A DNA stretch of 64,000 nt from Rhodopseudomonas pseudopalustris (GTDB lineage: Bacteria; Pseudomonadota; Alphaproteobacteria; Rhizobiales; Xanthobacteraceae): NCBI RefSeq assembly GCF_900110435.1, contig NZ_FODT01000004.1, positions 186,001 through 250,000 of the forward strand, written 5' to 3'. The translations under genes were made by a program, and so were the position numbers. The notes beneath the pieces were generated by a model, which saw nothing but the letters and a program-made list of their open reading frames with translations, ran no database searches and had not been told where the DNA came from. Positions 10,264 through 61,280 of this stretch are shown piece after piece (the stretch's first letter is position 1; each line of letters starts with the position of its first letter).

Positions 10264-11706
10264 CTAGGCCGCCCCAGCCTTCAGATACGCGGCGGCGATC
10301 TTCAGGTCGTCGACGAACCGTGCGTATTCGCGGGCCTTTGCGTCGTCGTCGGGCAGCCGGAGCAGATAGGATGGGTGCACCGTGACCAGCACCTGCGGGC
10401 CGCCGTTGTGATCGATCAGATGGCCACGGTTCTTGTTGATCGGTGTGGCCCTGCCGAGGACGCTCTGCGCCGCGGTCGCGCCCATCGCCACCACGAGCTG
10501 CGGGCGCACCGCGGCGAGCTCGCGCTCGTACCAAGGCCGGCACGCCTTGATTTCCGGCATCGCCGGCTTCTGGTGCAGGCGGATCTTGCCGCGCGGCACG
10601 AATTTGAAATGCTTCACCGCGTTGGTGACGTAGGTCTCGGCGCGATCGATCCCGGCTTCCGCCAGCGCGCGGTCGAGCATCTGGCCAGCCGGGCCGACGA
10701 ACGGGTGGCCGGCGAGGTCTTCCTTGTCGCCGGGCTGCTCGCCGACCAGCATCACGCTTGCATGCGGGGGACCTTCGCCGAACACGGTCTGCGTCGCGTC
10801 CTTCCACAGATCGCAGGCGCGGCAGTCGCGCGCCTGTTCGCGCAAGGTTTCGAGCCTATCGCCTTCGTGTCCGGCTCGGCTCATCGGCTGTTCCTGCCGT
10901 TGTGGTTTCTTCGGCGCGGTCGCCTCTGCCGCGATCATCGCGTGCGCGGCGCGCTCGGCATGCTCGATCAGCGGCTTGATCAACGCTGCTTCCGGCAGAT
11001 TGCGCCAGTATTTCTTCGGCATCTCCGCCTGCATCGCTTTGGTCTTCAGCCGCGCCGGATTGAAGATGCTGGCGTAGTAGGTCAGCCAGGTTTCTTCCAA
11101 TCGATCCTCGGATGGGGCCATCGCCTTGGCGACGCCCGGCGTGACCGCAATGGCGTGGCCATCCCAATGCGCGCAGACGTCCGGCGTCAGGATCGACCAC
11201 GCCATGTCGGCGAAACGCCGAGCGAAGAACGGCGCCGCCGCTTCGACGATATGGTGCTCCGGCTCGAACCAGGCGACGTAGCGCGACTTCGGCTCGCGGC
11301 CGATCTCGCGAAAGCGGACGAAGGCGTGCATCTTGTGTTCATCGCGGCGCACCGCCTTCACCATCGCCTGCAGTCGCGCAACGTCCGGATCGGTCGCGAC
11401 CTGCAACAGCTCCGGGTTGGCGCGCAGCCGCCACAGCGCTTGATACAGCCAGGCGAAGCGCTGCGGATCGCGGTGCAGGATCGCGATCGCCGCAAGCTCG
11501 ACGAAGCGGGCGGGAACGTTGAAGGTGCCGGACGACGGCGCACTCGGGGAGGGCGCAGGCGGCGCTAGCGCATCGAACAATTCGGGCTCGTCGCCTGCCA
11601 CCGTCCAACTGATATCAGCCGGCGCGACCTCCGCCAGCACAAGCTCCCGCGCCGCCTTGCGCCAGCCATGGAAATCGGTGTCGCTGTCGAGCCGGATGGA
11701 ATGCAT
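10264..11706 (-). CDS. udgX: DUF4130-UdgX fusion: uracil-DNA-binding glycosylase-like protein
   Basis: A 480-residue two-domain protein. Residues about 90-285 match the DUF4130 (TIGR03915) type, with HRDPQRFAWLYQALWRL, MHAFVRFRE and MPKKYWRNLPEA. Residues about 300-475 are a family 4-like uracil-DNA glycosylase of the UdgX type, with GEQPGDKEDLAGHPFVGPAG, TNAVKHFKF, GKIRLHQKP and VTVHPSYLLR. In characterised UdgX a histidine in this loop bonds covalently to the uracil site; here it would be His378. Iron-sulfur ligands would include CRAC near residue 300 and a cysteine near 389. The gene lies 96 bp downstream of a radical SAM gene in the same direction, and that gene's promoter side carries an SOS box. 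I infer a damage-inducible role in uracil or modified-base repair. Confidence 0.88.
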   Translation of the reverse strand: MHSIRLDSDTDFHGWRKAARELVLAEVAPADISWTVAGDEPELFDALAPPAPSPSAPSSGTFNVPARFVELAAIAILHRDPQRFAWLYQALWRLRANPELLQVATDPDVARLQAMVKAVRRDEHKMHAFVRFREIGREPKSRYVAWFEPEHHIVEAAAPFFARRFADMAWSILTPDVCAHWDGHAIAVTPGVAKAMAPSEDRLEETWLTYYASIFNPARLKTKAMQAEMPKKYWRNLPEAALIKPLIEHAERAAHAMIAAEATAPKKPQRQEQPMSRAGHEGDRLETLREQARDCRACDLWKDATQTVFGEGPPHASVMLVGEQPGDKEDLAGHPFVGPAGQMLDRALAEAGIDRAETYVTNAVKHFKFVPRGKIRLHQKPAMPEIKACRPWYERELAAVRPQLVVAMGATAAQSVLGRATPINKNRGHLIDHNGGPQVLVTVHPSYLLRLPDDDAKAREYARFVDDLKIAAAYLKAGAA

Positions 11707-11802: not shown

Positions 11803-13041
11803 TTAGAATCCAAATCCAAGTTGCTGCGCCTTCGGCCGGAACCGTTCCGCCAGCCGCGCGCTGTCGAGGAGATGCGGCGTCGGGCGGTGGTCGGAGAGAA
11901 CGATGAACGGCAGCGCCTTGTTCCGCGGGATGTGCAGGCGCGCGAGATCCATGCTGCGGATCGCGCTGTGTCGCCGCGTTGCGATGATGCGCTCGACGGC
12001 TTTGCGGCCGAAGCCCGGAACCCGAAGCAGATCCTCGCGGCTGGCGCGGTTGACGTCGAGCGGGAAGCGCTCGCGATGCCGCAGCGCCCAGGCGAGCTTC
12101 GGGTCGATCTCCAGCGACAGCATACCTGCGGACGGGTCAATGATTTCGCCGGCGTCGAAGCCGTAGAACCGCATCAGCCAGTCGGCCTGATACAGCCGGT
12201 GCTCGCGGATCAGCGGCGGAGCCTGCAGCGGCAGGGCGCGGCTGGAATCCGGGATCGGGCTGAACGCCGAGTAGTACACCCGCTTGAGATTGTAGGAACC
12301 GTAGAGATTGGCGCTGGTGTCGAGGATGGTCTGGTCGGTGGCGGCGTCGGCGCCGACGATCATCTGTGTGCTCTGGCCGGCCGGGGCGAAGCGCGGCGGC
12401 TTGGCGCGGCTCGGCGCGGTGCGCGCCTCCTTGGCCTCGTCGAGCTTCAGCCGCAGCCGCCCCATGGTGCGGCGGATGGCGCGGACGTTCTTCTCCGGCG
12501 CCAGCGCGGCGAGGCTTTGCTCCTCAGGCACTTCAATATTGATGCTGAGGCGATCGGCATAGCGGCCGGCTTTGCTGATCAGCGCGTCGTCGGCCTCCGG
12601 GATTGTCTTGAGATGGATGTAGCCGCGGAAATGGTGCTCCTCCCGCAAGCGCCGCGCCACCTCGACGATCTGCTCCATGGTGTAGTCGGCGCTGCGGATG
12701 ATGCCCGACGACAGGAACAGCCCCTCGATGTAGTTGCGGCGATAGAAGTCGAGCGTGAGCTGCACCACCTCGTCGACGGTGAAGCGCGCGCGCGGCACGT
12801 TCGACGAAGCACGGTTGACGCAATACAGGCAGTCATAGTTGCAGGCGTTGGTGAGCAGTACCTTCAACAGTGAGATGCAGCGGCCGTCCGGCGCATAGGA
12901 ATGGCAGATCCCCATGCCGGGCGCGGTCGAGCCCAGCCCCTTGCCGTCGCGGCTGTCGCGTTTCTCCGTCCCGCTCGAGGCGCAGGAGGCGTCGTATTTC
13001 GCCGCATCCGCCAGAATGGCCAGCTTGCGCTGCACGTCCAT
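11803..13041 (-). CDS. Putative DNA modification/repair radical SAM protein (TIGR03916 type)
   Basis: A 412-residue radical S-adenosylmethionine protein. The [4Fe-4S] motif CNYDCLYC (Cys67, Cys71, Cys74) is intact. The radical SAM barrel extends to about residue 270, and a helix-hairpin-helix DNA-binding element lies near residues 340-360 (LLRVPGFGRKAVERII). In many bacteria this family sits next to DUF4130 proteins, and here the partner is the downstream DUF4130-UdgX fusion. The reaction is unknown; DNA modification or repair is the family hypothesis. AAGGAGA precedes the ATG at 13041. The start is 94 bp from a consensus SOS box shared with the divergent imuA-imuB-dnaE2 operon, so SOS control is likely but needs testing for this direction. 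Confidence 0.88.
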   Translation of the reverse strand: MDVQRKLAILADAAKYDASCASSGTEKRDSRDGKGLGSTAPGMGICHSYAPDGRCISLLKVLLTNACNYDCLYCVNRASSNVPRARFTVDEVVQLTLDFYRRNYIEGLFLSSGIIRSADYTMEQIVEVARRLREEHHFRGYIHLKTIPEADDALISKAGRYADRLSINIEVPEEQSLAALAPEKNVRAIRRTMGRLRLKLDEAKEARTAPSRAKPPRFAPAGQSTQMIVGADAATDQTILDTSANLYGSYNLKRVYYSAFSPIPDSSRALPLQAPPLIREHRLYQADWLMRFYGFDAGEIIDPSAGMLSLEIDPKLAWALRHRERFPLDVNRASREDLLRVPGFGRKAVERIIATRRHSAIRSMDLARLHIPRNKALPFIVLSDHRPTPHLLDSARLAERFRPKAQQLGFGF

Positions 13042-13134
13042 GCTTGGAATCTCCTTGATTCAACTCGCGAAAAAAAATGGCGCAGGACCTCGGTGCGATC
13101 CCGATTGACTCCCCACCACGCTAGGGCTTTATTA

Positions 13135-13149
13135 GAACATATCATGAAC
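13135..13149. promoter_or_regulatory. Alphaproteobacterial SOS (LexA) box
   Basis: GAAC-N7-GAAC (GAACATATCATGAAC) is a perfect match to the alphaproteobacterial LexA operator, written GTTC-N7-GTTC on the other strand. It sits 60 bp before imuA and 94 bp before the divergent radical SAM gene. LexA cleavage after DNA damage would release the imuA operon. The position suits control of both directions. Confidence 0.85.
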
Positions 13150-13208
13150 AAATGAGCCGGCAACGGGTTCAATTGAATCTCGAAACGGCAGTCAAAAAGG
13201 AGCGGCGC

Positions 13209-13994
13209 ATGAACGGCGCGCGCCAAGACACGCTTGCGCGCCTGCAAGGCGCCATCGACCGGCTCGAAAGCGGGACGGCCGAGATCGTCCGGCGCGCTCC
13301 GCTCGGTCACGCGGAAGCTGACGCAACGCTGCAGGGCGGCCTGGCGCTCGGCGCGTTGCACGAGGTGTTCGCAGACGGCGGCCGCCACAGCGCGGCGGCG
13401 ACGGGGTTCGTCGCGGGGCTGGCGCGTCGTCTGGCTGAGCAGCGTTTTCTGCTGTGGATCCGGCCGGATTTTTCCGCGCGCGAAAACGGCGATCTGGCGA
13501 TGGAAGGCTTCGCCGAACTCGGGCTTGATCCGCGGCGCATCGTGCTGGTGCGCGCGCCCGATGCCGACCGCGCGCTACGCGCCGCCGCCGACGCGCTCGC
13601 CTGCAACGGGCTCGGCGCGGTGGTCACCGAGCTATGGGGCGAGACCCGCGCCTTCGATCTCGTCGCGTCGCGCAAGCTGACGCTGGCGTCGATGCAGTCC
13701 GGCGTCACCGCGCTGATGCTGCGGATCTCCGCGATGCCGCAGGCCTCGACCGCCGAGACGCGCTGGGTGGTGCGCGCGGCGCATTCGCCGCCGGTGGAAG
13801 GGTGGGGCGCGCCGGTGCTCGAAACTTCGCTCATCCGCAATCGTCACGGCCCAACCGGCCGCTGGATCATGGAATGGAATTGTGATGCGTGCCGCTTCCG
13901 TGAACCGCAGACGCATCCTCGGCCTATGGCTGCCGCGGTTGTCGACCGATCGTATCGAACGGAGGTCGCCGCCCCCGAGCGCCTCGCCGGCTGA
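13209..13994 (+). CDS. imuA: ImuA, RecA-like mutasome accessory protein
   Basis: A 261-residue protein of the ImuA (SulA/RecA-like) family, partner of ImuB and DnaE2 in damage-induced mutagenesis. It has ARLQGAIDRLESG at the start, the family stretch LGALHEVFADGG near residue 50, and a RecA-like core (FLLWIRPDFSARENGD, LVRAPDADRALRAAADAL). An upstream in-frame ATG at 13152 overlaps the SOS box region; ATG 13209 has AAGGAG 7 nt before it and is preferred. The 3' end overlaps the imuB start by about 110 bp, so the two are translated from one mRNA in different frames. Confidence 0.88.
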   Translation: MNGARQDTLARLQGAIDRLESGTAEIVRRAPLGHAEADATLQGGLALGALHEVFADGGRHSAAATGFVAGLARRLAEQRFLLWIRPDFSARENGDLAMEGFAELGLDPRRIVLVRAPDADRALRAAADALACNGLGAVVTELWGETRAFDLVASRKLTLASMQSGVTALMLRISAMPQASTAETRWVVRAAHSPPVEGWGAPVLETSLIRNRHGPTGRWIMEWNCDACRFREPQTHPRPMAAAVVDRSYRTEVAAPERLAG

Positions 13995-15480
13995 GGGCGC
14001 GCGCGCGCCACGTGTGGTCGCCGCCAAGCGCGACAACGCGCTGGTGGTCGTCGCCTGCGATGCGTACGCGACGCAAGGCGGGCTGATGCCGGGGATGCCG
14101 CTTGCCACCGCACGCGCAATGCATCCGGCGCTGGAGGTGATCGATCACGATCCCTTTGCCGACGCCGCGCTGCTTGCGGCGGTCGCCGACTGGTGCGATC
14201 GCTTCACCCCGCTGGTCGCGCTCGACGGCGCGGACGGGCTGTTACTCGACATCACCGGTTGCGCGCATCTGTTCGGCGACGAGGCTGAACTGCTGGCGAT
14301 GTTGTCGGCTGCGCTGATGCGGCAAGGTTTTGCAGTGAGCGCGGCGATCGCCGGCACTGCGGTGGCGGCGCGGGCGCTGACACGCGGTGCGCCGGGCAAG
14401 ATTGTCGCGCCGGGTGAGGAGGCGGGCGCGGTGGCGCCGCTGCCGGTGGCGGCGCTCGGCGTCGATGAGGCGATCGTGCGCGGCCTGCGCCGCGCCGGCC
14501 TGACGACGATCGGCGACGCGCTCGCGCGGCAGCCGTCCGAACTCGCCGCCCGCTTCGGCGAAGCCTTCGTCGCAGTGCTGCGCCGCGCCAGCGGTGAAGA
14601 CGACGCGCCGATTTCGCCGCGCAAGCCGGCGCCGGACTACGTCGTCGACAAGCGCTTCCCTGAGCCGATCGCCACGATCGAGGTGATCATGCCGACGCTG
14701 GTGAAGCTGGCGCGGCTGTTGATCGGCGCGATGGAACGGGGCGGCAAAGGCGCGCGGCAGCTCACGGCGTCGTTCTTCCGCAGCGACGGCGCGGTGCGGT
14801 GCATCACAGTCGAGGCCGGGCAGCCGGTGACACGAGTCGAAGTGGTGGAACGGCTGTTCGCCGAAAAGCTCGACGCGCTGGCTGATCCGCTCGATCCCGG
14901 CTTCGGCTTCGACCTGATCCGGCTCGCGGCCAGTCACAGCGTGACGATCACCGAGGCGCAGCGCGGTTTCGACACCACCGCGCATCAGGCTGAAGATGTC
15001 GCCGCGCTCGCCGATACGCTGTCGGCGCGGCTCGGGGCGCGGCGGGTGATCCGGTATCTGCCGCAAGACACCCACATTCCCGAACGCGCCGCGCTCGCGG
15101 TGCCGGTGCAGCATTGCCCGCCCGATGGGGCCGATGCGCCGTGGCCGGCGCGCACCGATGAGCCGCCGCTGCGGCCGTTGCGATTGCTGCAGCAGCCGGA
15201 GCCGATCGAGGTGCTGGCCGGGGTTCCGGACGGTCCGCCGGCGCAATTCATCTGGCGGCGGGTCACCCATCGGGTGGCGCGCGCCGAAGGTCCGGAGCGG
15301 ATCGCGATGGAATGGTGGCGCGCCGCCTCGCCGGAGCTGACACGCGATTACTTTCGCGTCGAGGATGATGCAGGCTCACGATTCTGGCTGTTCCGGGATG
15401 GGCTCTACGGCCGCGAGATGATGCCGCAGACGGACGGCAGCGGTCATCCGCGCTGGTACATGCACGGTCTGTTCGCGTGA
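13885..15480 (+). CDS. imuB: ImuB, catalytically inactive Y-family polymerase homologue
   Basis: A protein of about 531 residues related to Y-family DNA polymerases (DinB). In the mutasome it acts as the hub that binds the beta clamp, ImuA and DnaE2. The N-terminus RRILGLWLPRLSTDRI replaces the metal-binding DMDAFF of active polymerases, and the second acidic motif is replaced by DITGCAHLFGDEAEL, as known for ImuB. The C-terminal half (PLRPLRLLQQPEPIEVLAG, then FRVEDDAGSRFWLFRDG) is typical of the family. Starts at 13882 (GTG), 13885 (ATG) and 13900 (GTG) are all possible; GGAATGGAA precedes the ATG. The gene overlaps imuA by about 110 bp and ends 13 bp before dnaE2. Confidence 0.9.
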   Translation: MRAASVNRRRILGLWLPRLSTDRIERRSPPPSASPAEGARAPRVVAAKRDNALVVVACDAYATQGGLMPGMPLATARAMHPALEVIDHDPFADAALLAAVADWCDRFTPLVALDGADGLLLDITGCAHLFGDEAELLAMLSAALMRQGFAVSAAIAGTAVAARALTRGAPGKIVAPGEEAGAVAPLPVAALGVDEAIVRGLRRAGLTTIGDALARQPSELAARFGEAFVAVLRRASGEDDAPISPRKPAPDYVVDKRFPEPIATIEVIMPTLVKLARLLIGAMERGGKGARQLTASFFRSDGAVRCITVEAGQPVTRVEVVERLFAEKLDALADPLDPGFGFDLIRLAASHSVTITEAQRGFDTTAHQAEDVAALADTLSARLGARRVIRYLPQDTHIPERAALAVPVQHCPPDGADAPWPARTDEPPLRPLRLLQQPEPIEVLAGVPDGPPAQFIWRRVTHRVARAEGPERIAMEWWRAASPELTRDYFRVEDDAGSRFWLFRDGLYGREMMPQTDGSGHPRWYMHGLFA

Positions 15481-15493
15481 AAAGGCCGGTCGC

Positions 15494-18400
15494 ATGAAGG
15501 TCCCGGCCTATGCCGAGATCGGCGTCACCACCAATTTCTCGTTCCTCGAAGGCGGCTCGCATCCGCAGGACTATGTTCACGAGGCGAGCCGGCTCGGGCT
15601 GGAGGCGATCGGCATCGCCGACCGCAACACGCTGGCCGGCGTGGTGCGGGCCTATAGCGAACTCGGCAATGAGGACCTCATCCATAAGCCGAGGCTGCTG
15701 ATCGGCGCGCGGCTGGTGTTCGCCGACGGCACGCCGGACGTGCTCGCTTATCCGGTCGATCGGGCCGCCTATGGGCGGCTGTGCCGTTTGCTCAGCGTCG
15801 GCAAGCTGCGCGGTGCGAAGGGCGAATGCCATCTCGCCGTCGCCGATCTCGAAGCGTTCAGTCAGGGCCTGTCGCTGGTGCTGATGCCGCCTTATCGTTT
15901 CCAGGCCAGCGCCATCGCCGCCGCGTTGCAGCGTCTGACCGCGCTCGAATCCGGCGGAGTCTGGCTCGGGCTGACGCCGTATTATCGCGGCGACGACAAG
16001 CGGCGGCTGGCGCGGCTGAAGCGCGTGGCGTGGGCCGCCCGGGTGCCGGGCATCGCCACCAACGACGTGCTGTATCACCACCCCGAGCGCCGCGCGCTGC
16101 AGGATGTACTGAGCTGCGTGCGCGAGAAGACCACGATCGACAAGATCGGGCGGCGGCTGGAGGCGAATGCCGAGCGGCATCTGAAACCCGCAGCCGAAAT
16201 GGCCCGGCTATTCCGCGCGGACCCGGACGCGATCGCCGAGACGTTGCGCTTTGCCGCCGGCATCTCTTTCACCCTGGACGAATTGAAATATCACTATCCC
16301 GACGAGCCGGTGCCGCCCGGCAAGACCGCGCAGCAGCATCTCGAGGATCTGACCTGGGAAGGCGTCGCCGAATATTTTCCAGCTGGCATCAGCGATAAGC
16401 TACACGCCACCATCGACAAGGAACTGGGGATCATCGCGCATCGCGGCTATGCGCAATACTTCCTCACCGTGCACGACATCGTTCGCTACGCGCGGTCGCA
16501 GGACATCCTGTGCCAGGGGCGCGGCTCGGCCGCCAATTCGGCGGTGTGCTACGTCCTCGGCATCACCTGCGTCGATCCGACAGAGATCGACTTGCTGTTC
16601 GAACGTTTCGTCTCCGAGGAGCGCGACGAGCCGCCGGACATCGACGTCGATTTCGAGCATTCGCGCCGCGAAGAGGTGATGCAATACATCTATCGCCGCT
16701 ATGGTCGCCACCGCGCTGCGATCGTCGCTACCGTGATCCACTATCGGCCGCGCTCGGCGATCCGCGACGTCGGCAAGGCGCTGGGCCTCAGCGAGGACGT
16801 CACCGCCGCGCTGGCCGATACGGTGTGGGGAAGCTGGGGCAAGGGCCTGAGCGAGATGCAGGTGAAGCAGGCCGGGCTCGATCCGCACAACCCGCTGATC
16901 GGGCGTGCGGTCGAACTCGCCACCGAGCTGATCGGCTTTCCGCGGCATCTGTCGCAGCATGTCGGCGGTTATGTGTTGACCCAGGACCGGCTCGACAGCT
17001 ACGTGCCGATCGGCAACGCGGCGATGGAGGGTCGTACCTTCATCGAATGGGACAAGGACGACATCGACGCCATCAAGATGATGAAGGTCGACGTGCTGGC
17101 GCTCGGCATGCTGACCTGCATCCGCAAAGGGTTCGACCTGATCGCGCAGCACAAGGGCGTGCGCTACGCGCTGTCCGACATCAAGTCGGAGGACGACAAC
17201 GCCGTCTACCAGATGCTCCAGCGCGGCGAGTCGATCGGCGTGTTTCAGGTCGAGAGCCGGGCGCAGATGAACATGCTGCCGCGTTTGAAGCCGAAATGTT
17301 TCTACGACCTCGTCATCGAGGTTGCGATCGTGCGGCCGGGCCCGATTCAGGGCGACATGGTGCATCCCTATCTGCGCCGTCGCAACAAGCAGGAGCCGGT
17401 GGTGTATCCCGCGCCGGCTGGTCACGCAGGCGACGCCAACGAACTCGAAGTTATTCTCGGCAAGACGCTCGGCGTGCCGTTGTTTCAGGAGCAGGCGATG
17501 CGGATCGCGATCGAGGCCGCGCATTTCACGCCGGACGAAGCCAATCAGTTGCGCCGGGCGATGGCGACGTTCCGCAATGTCGGCACCATCGGAAAGTTCG
17601 AGAGCAAGATGGTCGGCAATCTGGTGGCGCGCGGCTATGATCCGGTGTTCGCCAAGAACTGCTTCGAGCAGATCAAGGGGTTCGGCTCTTACGGCTTTCC
17701 CGAGAGCCATGCTGCGAGCTTCGCCAAGCTGGTCTATGTCTCGGCCTGGATGAAGTGCGAGCATCCCGACGCGTTCTGCTGCGCGCTGTTGAATTCGCAG
17801 CCGATGGGATTCTATGCGCCGGCGCAGATCGTCGGCGACGCGCGAGCCAACGAGGTCGAGGTGCGGCCGGTCGACGTGTCGTTCAGCGACGGCCAGTGCA
17901 CGCTGGAGGAACGTTGCGGCAAGCATCACGCGGTGCGGCTCGGCTTTCGCCAGATCGACGGTTTCGTCTGGGCCGACCCGGATGAGGAGCGGGTGCGGCG
18001 GGAGGCAGGACTTCTGCCCAGCGAGGATTGGGCGGCGCGGATTGTCGCGGCGCGTGCGCGGGGGCCGTTCAATTCGCTTGAGCGGTTCGCGCGCCTGACC
18101 GCATTGCCGAAGCGGGCGCTGATCCTGCTTGCGGATGCCGATGCGTTCCGCTCGCTCGGGCTCGATCGCCGCGCGGCGTTGTGGGCGGTGCGGCGACTGC
18201 CCGACGACGTGCCGCTGCCGCTGTTCGAGGCCGCCAGCGCATCCGAGCAACTCGATGAGAATGCAGCGCCGCTGCCGCAAATGCCGACGGCCGAGCACGT
18301 CGTCGCCGATTATCAAACCGTGCGGCTGTCGCTGAAGGGGCACCCGATGGAGTTTTTGCGCCCGCTGTTTGCGGCCGAGCGCGTCGTGACCTGCCGCTCG

Positions 18401-18826
18401 ATATCGGAGTCCCGCGTCAGCGGCCAGCGGATGCGCTGCGCCGGCGTGGTGCTGGTGCGGCAGCGGCCGGGCAGCGCCAAAGGCGTGGTGTTCATCACGC
18501 TGGAGGACGAAACCGGAATCGCCAACCTCGTGGTGTGGCCGGCGGTGATGGAGACGTTTCGCAAGGAGGTGATGGGTGCGCGGCTGCTGTGGGTCGAGGG
18601 CCGAATCCAGGCGAGTCCGGAAGGCGTGGTGCATCTGGTCGCCGAGCGCCTGAGCGACCGCAGCTTCGAGATGACGCGGCTGTCCGACAATCTCGCGGCG
18701 CCGCGGCTCGGCGAATTGCACGAGCCGCTCAACGATGACCGCCGCGAGCATCCCGACAACCCCGCCCAGCGCATCCGCCACCCCCGAGACGTCCGCATCC
18801 TGCCGCCGTCGCGGGATTTTCATTGA
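15494..18826 (+). CDS. dnaE2: DnaE2/ImuC, error-prone DNA polymerase III alpha subunit
   Basis: A C-family DNA polymerase of 1110 residues, the usual DnaE2 length. Domains: N-terminal PHP domain (YAEIGVTTNFSFLEGGSHP, GIADRNTLAG), polymerase core from about residue 270 with catalytic acids in PDIDVDFEHSRREEV near residue 380, an SRAQMNMLPRLKPKCFYDLV stretch in the thumb/finger region, and a C-terminal OB fold (GVVLVRQRPGSAKGVVFITL). It performs translesion synthesis across damage with ImuA and ImuB and is the main source of damage-induced mutation in organisms carrying this cassette. It starts 13 bp after imuB and shares the SOS-controlled promoter before imuA. Confidence 0.95.
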   Translation: MKVPAYAEIGVTTNFSFLEGGSHPQDYVHEASRLGLEAIGIADRNTLAGVVRAYSELGNEDLIHKPRLLIGARLVFADGTPDVLAYPVDRAAYGRLCRLLSVGKLRGAKGECHLAVADLEAFSQGLSLVLMPPYRFQASAIAAALQRLTALESGGVWLGLTPYYRGDDKRRLARLKRVAWAARVPGIATNDVLYHHPERRALQDVLSCVREKTTIDKIGRRLEANAERHLKPAAEMARLFRADPDAIAETLRFAAGISFTLDELKYHYPDEPVPPGKTAQQHLEDLTWEGVAEYFPAGISDKLHATIDKELGIIAHRGYAQYFLTVHDIVRYARSQDILCQGRGSAANSAVCYVLGITCVDPTEIDLLFERFVSEERDEPPDIDVDFEHSRREEVMQYIYRRYGRHRAAIVATVIHYRPRSAIRDVGKALGLSEDVTAALADTVWGSWGKGLSEMQVKQAGLDPHNPLIGRAVELATELIGFPRHLSQHVGGYVLTQDRLDSYVPIGNAAMEGRTFIEWDKDDIDAIKMMKVDVLALGMLTCIRKGFDLIAQHKGVRYALSDIKSEDDNAVYQMLQRGESIGVFQVESRAQMNMLPRLKPKCFYDLVIEVAIVRPGPIQGDMVHPYLRRRNKQEPVVYPAPAGHAGDANELEVILGKTLGVPLFQEQAMRIAIEAAHFTPDEANQLRRAMATFRNVGTIGKFESKMVGNLVARGYDPVFAKNCFEQIKGFGSYGFPESHAASFAKLVYVSAWMKCEHPDAFCCALLNSQPMGFYAPAQIVGDARANEVEVRPVDVSFSDGQCTLEERCGKHHAVRLGFRQIDGFVWADPDEERVRREAGLLPSEDWAARIVAARARGPFNSLERFARLTALPKRALILLADADAFRSLGLDRRAALWAVRRLPDDVPLPLFEAASASEQLDENAAPLPQMPTAEHVVADYQTVRLSLKGHPMEFLRPLFAAERVVTCRSISESRVSGQRMRCAGVVLVRQRPGSAKGVVFITLEDETGIANLVVWPAVMETFRKEVMGARLLWVEGRIQASPEGVVHLVAERLSDRSFEMTRLSDNLAAPRLGELHEPLNDDRREHPDNPAQRIRHPRDVRILPPSRDFH

Positions 18827-59456: not shown

Positions 59457-61280
59457 GTGGCAGTATCCAACATCATCAGCGAGTGCCTCGACGCATTGCT
59501 GCATCCGTCGGCGCGATACGACGCGCTGGCGAGCGCGCGTCATCGCGCGTTCATTGCGCCTCGCCTGCTCGGCAGCCTCGTCGCCTTCGCTGCGTTCCCG
59601 ATCTACCTCGTGCTCCGGGGCGCGCCGAGTGCGCTCGAAGCGCTGGCGTTCGCATGGCTGATCGCGCCGATTCTGCTGTCGTGGTTTCTGTCACGCACCG
59701 GCCGTTATCGTAGTGCCCATGTGCTGTCCTCGCTGTCGCTGGCGAGCCTGATCGTGATCGTCGCGGCGCAGACCGGCGGAATTTCATCTTTCGCCGCGAT
59801 CTGGCTGGTGCTGGTGCCGCTCGAGGCCGCGCTGTCGGCGTCGCGCCGTGTCGTGAGCTTCGCCGCAGCGCTCGCGCTGGGTTGCGCCGCGGCGCTGATC
59901 GCGACCGGTCAGTTCGGCTGGCTTCCGACGCCCACCGGCGCCGACGTGTCGCACGGCACGCTGATGGCGTTCAGTGTCGCATCCGCGACGCTGTACGCGG
60001 CCGGACTCGCGTTCGGCGCGGAATCGCTGGCGCGCACCAGCGACACGCTGCTCAGCGTCGAGGAGGAGCGCTACCGGCTGCTCGCCCTTCACATGAGCGA
60101 TGTGATCTCGCGCCACAGCCGCAACGGCGCGGTGCAGTTCATTTCACCGGCCGTCGAAACCCTGCTCGGTCTGCCTGCGGCTCGGCTCGCGGGGCACGGC
60201 CTGTTCGATCGGGTCCACGTCGCCGATCGGCCAGCCTATCTCAAGGCGCTGTCGGACGCAGGCCTTGGCGGCGAGGGACGCAGCGTCGAGTTCCGCGTTC
60301 GCCGCGAGGTTGCGCGCGATGATCGCGGCCGGCCGACGGCACCGGAATTCATCTGGCTTGAAATGCGCTGCCGCCCGTTTGCACCCGGCACTCAATCGTC
60401 GGCCGCCTGCGAGACCGGCGTGGTCGCGGTGATGCGCGACGTCACCGATCGCAAGCTGCAGGAACAGGCCCTGGAACAGGCGCGCGCCGAGGCGAGCCGC
60501 GCCGACGCCAGCAAGAGCCGCTTCCTTGCCACCATGAGCCACGAGCTGCGCACGCCGCTGAATGCGATCATCGGCTTCTCCGACATGATCCTGCACGAAG
60601 ACGAGCTGATGCTCGCGCCGGAGCGGCGCAAGGAATATGCGCAGCTCATCAACGATTCCGGTCAGCACCTGTTGTCGGTCGTCAACGGCATTCTCGACAT
60701 GTCGAAGATGGAATCGGGAAATTTCGAGATCGTTCCGGAGCCGTTCGCGCCGCGACCGGCGCTGCTGAATTGCTGCAATCTGCTGGCGCTGAAGGCCCGC
60801 GAGAATGGCATCGAGCTGGTGACGCGCGCGCCTGAAGATCTTCCGGAGATCGTCGGCGATGCGCGCGCGTTCAAGCAGATCCTGCTCAATCTGGTGTCGA
60901 ACGCGATCAAGTTCACAGAGCGCGGCGGCACCGTCTCCGTCGAAGCCGCCGTTGAAGCGGCGCGGCTGGTGCTGCGGGTCCGCGACAACGGCGTCGGCAT
61001 TGCGGCGGAAGACCTGAAACGGATCGGCGATCCGTTCTTCCAGGCCGGAAAGACGTATCAGCGCCGCCATGAGGGCACCGGGCTCGGCCTTTCGATCGTG
61101 AAGAGCCTGGTCGGTCTTCACGGCGGCAAGATCGACGTGACGAGCGAGGTTGATCGGGGCACGATCGTGACGATATCGCTGCCGTTGGCGCCTTCGGCGC
61201 CGTGCAACGTCACGACGCTGCAGCCGCCACAGCCGGCCGAGCCTCAATTGCAAGACTATCAGGTGAAGAAGAGTGCCTAA
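59457..61280 (+). CDS. divJ: DivJ-like PAS sensor histidine kinase
   Basis: A 607-residue membrane histidine kinase. About six N-terminal helices (residues 30-185) follow a start with LLHPSARYDALASARHRAFIAPRL, the signature I associate with DivJ. A PAS domain spans about residues 205-330 (MSDVISRHSRNGAVQFISPAVETLLG). The dimerisation domain has the phospho-acceptor His362 in MSHELRTPLNAIIGFSDM. The catalytic ATPase domain shows NLVSNAIKFT, DNGVGI and GTGLGLSIVKSLV. DivJ phosphorylates DivK in cell-polarity control in alphaproteobacteria, which bears on CtrA. A CtrA-like box lies upstream. The start is GTG 59457. It overlaps the next gene by 8 bp. DivJ assignment is probable, not certain. Confidence 0.85.
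   Translation: MAVSNIISECLDALLHPSARYDALASARHRAFIAPRLLGSLVAFAAFPIYLVLRGAPSALEALAFAWLIAPILLSWFLSRTGRYRSAHVLSSLSLASLIVIVAAQTGGISSFAAIWLVLVPLEAALSASRRVVSFAAALALGCAAALIATGQFGWLPTPTGADVSHGTLMAFSVASATLYAAGLAFGAESLARTSDTLLSVEEERYRLLALHMSDVISRHSRNGAVQFISPAVETLLGLPAARLAGHGLFDRVHVADRPAYLKALSDAGLGGEGRSVEFRVRREVARDDRGRPTAPEFIWLEMRCRPFAPGTQSSAACETGVVAVMRDVTDRKLQEQALEQARAEASRADASKSRFLATMSHELRTPLNAIIGFSDMILHEDELMLAPERRKEYAQLINDSGQHLLSVVNGILDMSKMESGNFEIVPEPFAPRPALLNCCNLLALKARENGIELVTRAPEDLPEIVGDARAFKQILLNLVSNAIKFTERGGTVSVEAAVEAARLVLRVRDNGVGIAAEDLKRIGDPFFQAGKTYQRRHEGTGLGLSIVKSLVGLHGGKIDVTSEVDRGTIVTISLPLAPSAPCNVTTLQPPQPAEPQLQDYQVKKSA

Follow-up and report, generated by a model that had tools for sequence, protein, structure and literature searches.

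A predicted LexA box as the probable shared operator of divergent radical SAM/UdgX and imuA-imuB-dnaE2 operons in Rhodopseudomonas pseudopalustris

Introduction

The closest described relative of the system treated here is the COG1573-COG4277 operon, a "UDG base excision repair" system (UDG, uracil-DNA glycosylase). In the available parts of the source, SOS control of this operon is predicted in Bacteroidetes, and earlier reports are cited in which a UDG system of this kind belongs to the SOS response of Verrucomicrobia and Alphaproteobacteria (PMC8565304). The LexA motif of Alphaproteobacteria is given as GTTC-N7-GTTC (PMC8565304, PMC12907096, both as partly available). Here we analyze a 64,000-nucleotide stretch of the Rhodopseudomonas pseudopalustris genome (assembly GCF_900110435.1, contig NZ_FODT01000004.1, positions 186,001 to 250,000 of the forward strand), hereafter the window. 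In it, a predicted SOS (LexA) box lies between two divergent operons: a leftward one encoding a radical S-adenosylmethionine (SAM) protein, whose gene we call rSAM, and a DUF4130-UdgX fusion, and a rightward one encoding the imuA-imuB-dnaE2 mutasome. As a whole, the explanation that LexA at 13135-13149 represses both operons, and that DNA damage releases both, seems to us quite probable.

Several lines of earlier work bear on the left arm. In the portion of PMC3765255 at hand, DUF4130, radical SAM proteins and UDGs are tied to SOS gene neighborhoods, and the core SOS genes listed as conserved in alpha- and betaproteobacteria, as far as PMC3323433 was available, include no rSAM-UdgX operon. UdgX itself is defined by a motif A with Q53 and an R-loop with R107 and H109; its activity has been reported for Bradyrhizobium diazoefficiens, and its physiological role is called largely unknown in an account whose available main text does not use the term SOS (PMC10359453). 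Within one literature collection, we found nothing joining UdgX with SOS or LexA, or UdgX with radical SAM enzymes, and the combination of radical SAM, LexA, uracil-DNA glycosylase and SOS led to PMC8565304 only.

Results

The gap between the two operons spans 13042-13208 (167 bp) and is bounded by the rSAM start codon (ATG at 13041, minus strand) and the imuA start codon (ATG at 13209). On its plus strand, at 13135-13149, lies the sequence GAACATATCATGAAC, a perfect GAAC-N7-GAAC that agrees with the GTTC-N7-GTTC direct-repeat criterion of the alphaproteobacterial LexA regulon and that we predict to be a shared operator; its distance to the start codon is 93 bp for rSAM and 59 bp for imuA. An earlier note on this DNA, made from the sequence alone, had placed such a box between the two units, and this is borne out. 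The motif scan that the note proposed does recover the box, yet the window holds two matches where shuffled sequences predict 1.98, the second (60732-60746) falling within long open frames. For this single gap, the chance expectation is about 0.005, and the whole genome holds 142 matches versus 90 for a reversed-pattern control. The bare pattern is unremarkable, and the case rests on comparison across genomes. The comparison of relatives that the note also proposed speaks clearly for the box: in 22 aligned gaps, drawn from 19 genomes of the family (the window's own and the same-genus L030 included) and three of Bradyrhizobium, both the core GAACATA...TGAAC and a TTGACTC upstream of it are invariant (22/22 each). 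The identical 15-mer was also found upstream of unlinked rSAM operons in other families, for example in Brevundimonas (L054) and Mesorhizobium (L110).

Boxes of this kind accompany rSAM operons far beyond the window. Among 119 genomes of the window's family, 29 have a real rSAM match (one gene split between frames in L029, one with an in-frame TAG in L022), the other listed matches being weak apart from a scar in L030. Where rSAM is divergent to imuA, a box lies in the gap at all 18 loci, with just 47 bp separating it from rSAM in L018; where no imuA match occurs within 1.5 kb, a box lies 11-32 bp upstream of rSAM at all 11. Of 299 evenly drawn Pseudomonadota genomes, 53 have TIGR03916, the family to which the rSAM protein belongs (36 alphaproteobacteria and 17 others), and every upstream region was read. 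The alphaproteobacterial box is present in 36/36 alphaproteobacteria, and the 17 others carry CTGTN8ACAG (12), CTGTN8CCAG (3), a GTCTCN7GAGAC palindrome (1) or none of the patterns (1). These boxes sit within about 100 bp upstream of rSAM, mostly away from a mutasome. When the motifs were swapped as a control, CTGTN8ACAG occurred in none of the 36 alphaproteobacteria and the alphaproteobacterial box in none of the 17 others; a looser CTGN10CAG occurs in two of the 36.

A second, named set consists of the best 80 of at least 587 rSAM loci (63 alphaproteobacteria, nine betaproteobacteria, four Verrucomicrobia and four gammaproteobacteria). In it, a box lies no more than 110 bp away in 59 of the 63 alphaproteobacteria, where 0.0037 would be expected per scanned window at the same loci, and eight of the nine betaproteobacteria have CTGTN8NCAG (five perfect), against about 0.012 expected per scanned window for a similarly loose pattern. 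GTTCN4GAAC is present in two of the four Verrucomicrobia, and, judged by eye, one gammaproteobacterium (L055) has CTGTN8CCAG. Across all the rSAM loci read, and besides the xanthomonads discussed below, those lacking the expected box are the alphaproteobacteria L037, L046, L102 and L104 (the last two each one mismatch away from it), the betaproteobacterium L068, the Verrucomicrobia L070 and L086, and L111. Because unlinked rSAM operons still bear their own lineage's LexA-type box, the comparison strongly supports the left operon as an independent LexA target, and two-directional LexA control of the divergent operons is likely for that reason.

The repressor itself can be followed in the same genomes. 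In the window's genome a single LexA passes the family cut-off (178 bits), three weaker matches falling short of it, and a GAACN7GAAC box lies 118 bp upstream of the lexA match. Of the 80 genomes with named rSAM loci, 30 were searched for lexA, which was present in all of them. The box upstream of lexA belongs to the same class as the rSAM box in 18/18 named alphaproteobacteria, in 3/3 Verrucomicrobia, and in Spongiibacter and Aquabacterium.

The named set also shows what the left operon consists of. Because DUF4130 follows rSAM at 78 of the 80 loci (the contig ends at the remaining two), whereas a UdgX match is missing from ten loci with enough flanking sequence, gene order indicates that rSAM-DUF4130 is the constant unit and UdgX a common addition. 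Six rSAM-DUF4130 loci without a UdgX match (L044, L045, L051, L055, L071 and L109) carry a perfect LexA-type box (four) or CTGTN8CCAG (two). Distant copies occur on plasmids. By eye, a Phaeobacter copy (L180) has the alphaproteobacterial box and a Clostridia copy (L178) a near match to GAACN4GTTC; no box was recognized by eye at L175 and L176 (Bacteroidota), L177 (Acinetobacter) or L179 (Gemmatirosa). Phaeobacter accounts for 58 of the 158 plasmid records with an rSAM match, and in L180 some 5 kb separate the operon from a ligase with the annotation cisplatin damage response. The rSAM gene was also seen on two contigs of a viral collection, L222 and L223 (truncated in one where the contig stops), which may represent host DNA or a prophage.

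The earlier note went further and took joint control to imply that the radical SAM/UdgX chemistry works with mutagenic bypass. This does not follow, since most genomes with both genes have them apart on the contigs examined and some carriers lack an intact DnaE2. DnaE2 exceeds its cut-off in 114 of the 299 Pseudomonadota genomes and in 45 of the 53 rSAM carriers; the other eight carriers (G138, G390, G163, G171 (split gene), G191, G199, G304 and G374) are without an intact DnaE2. Among alphaproteobacteria, 34/36 carriers have DnaE2 versus 37/50 non-carriers, a modest association (p 0.02, kinship ignored). The two genes lie within 10 kb of each other in at least nine of the 45 genomes with both (contig ends may conceal more), but not in the remaining 36 on the contigs examined. 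Five of the nine linked cases are divergent and belong to the window's family; in the other four, from one further family (f12), dnaE2 is downstream on the same strand. In the sphingomonads L095 and L099 the order is imuA-imuB-box-rSAM-UdgX-dnaE2, so that rSAM-UdgX with its own box is inserted between imuB and dnaE2, and the divergent layouts of Henriciella (L059) and Methylopila (L038) have two and three boxes, respectively. In a quickly built tree of 92 rSAM rows, where many forks are weakly supported and gain is indistinguishable from loss, 17 of the 75 rows scored are linked; they fall in at least three separate parts of the tree, and at least five changes are needed. Linkage with the mutasome is thus seen in no fewer than three lineages, whose layouts differ, and because it recurs in this way, joint work with mutagenic bypass is plausible. 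A stronger form, in which the rSAM-DUF4130-UdgX products act together with ImuB-DnaE2 at the same lesions, would add to the shared-operator reading rather than replace it. The recurrent linkage in layouts with one, two or three boxes or an embedded operon, the nine close pairs and the alphaproteobacterial association speak for it; the distance between the genes in most genomes, the carriers without DnaE2 and the modest size of that association speak against it, and two adjacent LexA-controlled units may reflect merely common regulation. We regard such functional coupling as possible, somewhat short of an even chance.

A different view of the locus is that the box serves imuA alone, the rSAM operon being constitutive or otherwise signaled in this family, and it is here that the points against control of the left arm gather. 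The first concern orientation and spacing. Among 18 alphaproteobacterial stretches elsewhere, of which one without a box and two without detectable imuA or imuB were excluded, the box is in GAAC orientation toward the imu genes in 13 of 15 (imuB only in five of the 13), and the window's box likewise faces imuA. The boxes of rSAM itself mostly face rSAM (50 of the 59 named alphaproteobacteria with a box), which is opposite to the orientation in the window, and the 93 bp from box to rSAM compare with mostly 2-50 bp at unlinked loci. The second is the persistence of the gap's elements without rSAM. The 119 family genomes gave 103 imuA matches, of which the best 30 were analyzed, 16 with rSAM adjoining and 14 without. 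TTGAC and a box at constant spacing are found at 16/16 of the former and 11/14 of the latter, where the box of two further loci lies outside the scanned part and the contig of the third starts too near imuA; in all 27 imuA loci with a box within the scan, TTGAC is 29-32 bp ahead of it. Since rSAM-less relatives retain TTGACTC and the box at unchanged spacing beside imuA, nothing in the gap marks control of the left arm, and the comparison of rSAM-linked with rSAM-less imuA loci revealed no gap element specific to it. The box interior ATATCAT is commoner at rSAM-linked loci (14/18) than at rSAM-less ones (4/13; L245, whose contig begins too near imuA, is left out), a difference (p 0.013, kinship ignored) to which we give no weight.

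The promoters point the same way. TTGACT at 13105-13110 (plus strand), within the invariant TTGACTC footprint, is likely the -35 element of the imuA promoter; the presumed -10 element, read from the conservation footprint, falls within 13128-13134 on the same strand, and given TTGACTC as -35, imuA transcription likely starts at or within the box. Leftward, a strict consensus promoter scan of the gap found no promoter, as it found none rightward. A tentative leftward promoter at 13136-13163 (minus strand) combines TTGCCG (13163-13158), a 16-nt spacer and TATGTT (13141-13136) inside the box; it is weak, with 8/12 consensus matches, below the scan threshold, and its -35 is not kept in the aligned Bradyrhizobium gaps. 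Because the consensus upstream of rSAM (76 distinct regions, box in GAAC orientation) shows a weak ttg.c at -18 and GAACATATaatGAAC, rSAM operons may have their -10 element between the two half-sites of the box. The note's suggestion that LexA also governs the left arm, which the note itself offered as inference, is strongly supported by the boxes at unlinked rSAM loci; the leftward promoter was not identified by the scan.

Outside the family, the evidence is also less uniform among xanthomonads and betaproteobacteria. The three xanthomonads of the named set are without a known box by eye, xanthomonad-type loci have no recognized LexA box at rSAM, and four of five betaproteobacterial lexA genes (L146-L149) lack a perfect CTGTN8ACAG and show near matches by eye. 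Upstream of lexA in Stenotrophomonas and Pseudoxanthomonas (L154, L162) we found TTAGN6TACTA, and the one Xanthomonas lexA examined (L163) matched none of the LexA patterns tried. Xanthomonad-type loci have a feature of their own, the GTCTCN7GAGAC palindrome, which is conserved upstream of rSAM in L048, L049, L080 (by eye) and L133.

Orientation, spacing, the identical elements of rSAM-less relatives and the outcome of the strict scan all suit a box that serves imuA alone. Against this, the loss of LexA control directly beside a LexA box would be odd for an operon that carries one in 36/36 alphaproteobacteria and 15/17 others, and the 47 bp of L018 leave little room for a separate promoter. 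We consider an imuA-only box quite unlikely. That the match is a product of chance is rejected as highly improbable: some two matches are expected per window, but the core is invariant in every aligned gap, the identical 15-mer recurs at unlinked operons, and boxes stand at the rSAM loci of the even draw.

The gene assignments of the earlier note hold, ImuA falling below its cut-off. The rSAM gene (11803-13041, minus strand) encodes a 412-aa radical SAM protein with a C-terminal helix-hairpin-helix region, whose own matches fall below Pfam's cut-off. The protein matches TIGR03916 (rSAM_link_UDG), which we take to be COG4277, with 570.6 bits (cut-off 343.5). Its CxxxCxxC cluster motif (C67, C71 and C74) is invariant across 40 sequences, as are C20, C46 and C55 ahead of it, which are kept in 10/11 wider sequences and hint at a second iron-sulfur cluster in the family. 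The structure model has a mean predicted local distance difference test score (pLDDT) of 81.9 and is poor at residues 20-57. Its best solved folds, effectively tied, are lipoyl synthase (Z 17.1, 222 residues, 3.2 Å) and HydE (Z 16.4, 214 residues, 2.6 Å); a sequence search gave no solved relative at E 0.01. No SplB family is among the NCBIfam matches, and spore photoproduct lyase is not among the fold matches listed.

The second gene (10264-11706, minus strand) encodes a 480-aa fusion of DUF4130 (TIGR03915, above its curated cut-off) with UdgX (TIGR03914); given gene order and strand, it is presumably co-transcribed with rSAM. Its model has a mean pLDDT of 89.1, and the UDG domain occupies its fold-match lists. 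Aligned to the Mycobacterium smegmatis protein, the UdgX domain retains Q53 within motif A (GEQPG), R107 and the crosslinking histidine H109 of the R-loop (GKIRLH versus GKRRIH), and the HPS motif. On the right (all plus strand), imuA (13209-13994, 261 aa) is assigned from position and conservation, with 42.6 bits against NF033429 (cut-off 150), and its close homologs align from residue 1 or 2; imuB (13882-15480) is Y-family polymerase-like (PF00817); and dnaE2, or imuC (15494-18826), encodes an error-prone DNA polymerase (NF004225, 1578.8 bits, cut-off 939).

Discussion

Directly observed are the box, its conservation, a genomic LexA and boxes upstream of nearly all rSAM loci examined. From these we infer LexA binding, repression in both directions and all of the chemistry that follows. 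LexA bound at 13135-13149 would be an operator common to both operons. Rightward, it would cover the transcription start of imuA-imuB-dnaE2, just 3′ of TTGACT and the -10 region; leftward, the same LexA would block RNA polymerase at the divergent rSAM/DUF4130-UdgX promoter, on or beside the box. Upon DNA damage, active RecA would prompt LexA self-cleavage and free both operons at once, so that an error-prone polymerase complex and a uracil-DNA binding or base-repair pair would be produced simultaneously. The most likely role of the pair would be the capture of uracil, of related bases or of the resulting abasic sites in damaged or error-prone-copied DNA, and the radical SAM enzyme would act on the captured lesion.

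The simplest history for this arrangement is that an rSAM operon already under LexA control came to adjoin the operator of imuA. At this place (1501-1681 in its sequence), the same-genus L030 has since lost most of rSAM and all of UdgX and retained the box and the imuA operon.

Almost every rSAM locus examined has a LexA-type box, which places the need for these enzymes in the SOS response, and the shared box suggests that the Bradyrhizobium family probably makes the rSAM/UdgX pair alongside a mutagenic polymerase. These boxes make the question of what UdgX does simply testable. Within the collection consulted, the SOS and UdgX literatures are seemingly unjoined. A bolder extension, which we hold to be unlikely on present evidence, is that rSAM-DUF4130, often with UdgX, forms a core yet overlooked arm of the SOS response in bacteria. 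In that case a DNA-acting radical SAM enzyme would process lesions that UdgX has captured covalently, and in genomes with both systems it would do so together with ImuB-DnaE2. With a second iron-sulfur cluster and a fold like that of lipoyl synthase or HydE, it would bring a chemistry new to DNA repair, and through the common operator capture and bypass would increase in parallel.

It is useful to contrast the locus with the systems already described. As far as the source was available, LexA control of an rSAM/UDG pair has already been published for other groups (PMC8565304). The COG1573-COG4277 operon is very probably the same pair, a UDG-family protein and a helix-hairpin-helix protein under the SOS repressor. 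There, however, it is described as a standalone two-gene operon, whereas here the operator is shared with imuA-imuB-dnaE2, and in the available text UdgX, covalent capture and the radical SAM nature of COG4277 are not named. SplB-like radical SAM, DUF4130 and UDG neighborhoods have likewise been described in the accessible part of PMC3765255, whereas the rSAM model here is nearest to lipoyl synthase and HydE among the folds listed. The UdgX domain is 51% identical to M. smegmatis UdgX over 193 aligned columns, with GEQPG, R107, H109 and HPS shared; unlike that protein, it is fused to DUF4130 and adjoins a radical SAM gene. The imuA-imuB-dnaE2 cassette has the same gene order and upstream LexA box as in Caulobacter and others; unlike the Caulobacter-type cassette, it shares its operator with a divergent operon. 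What is new is thus the single operator for both operons, the near-universal rSAM box, the link with UdgX, and the linkage with the mutasome, which occurs in three or more lineages and in one of them lies within imuA-imuB-dnaE2 itself.

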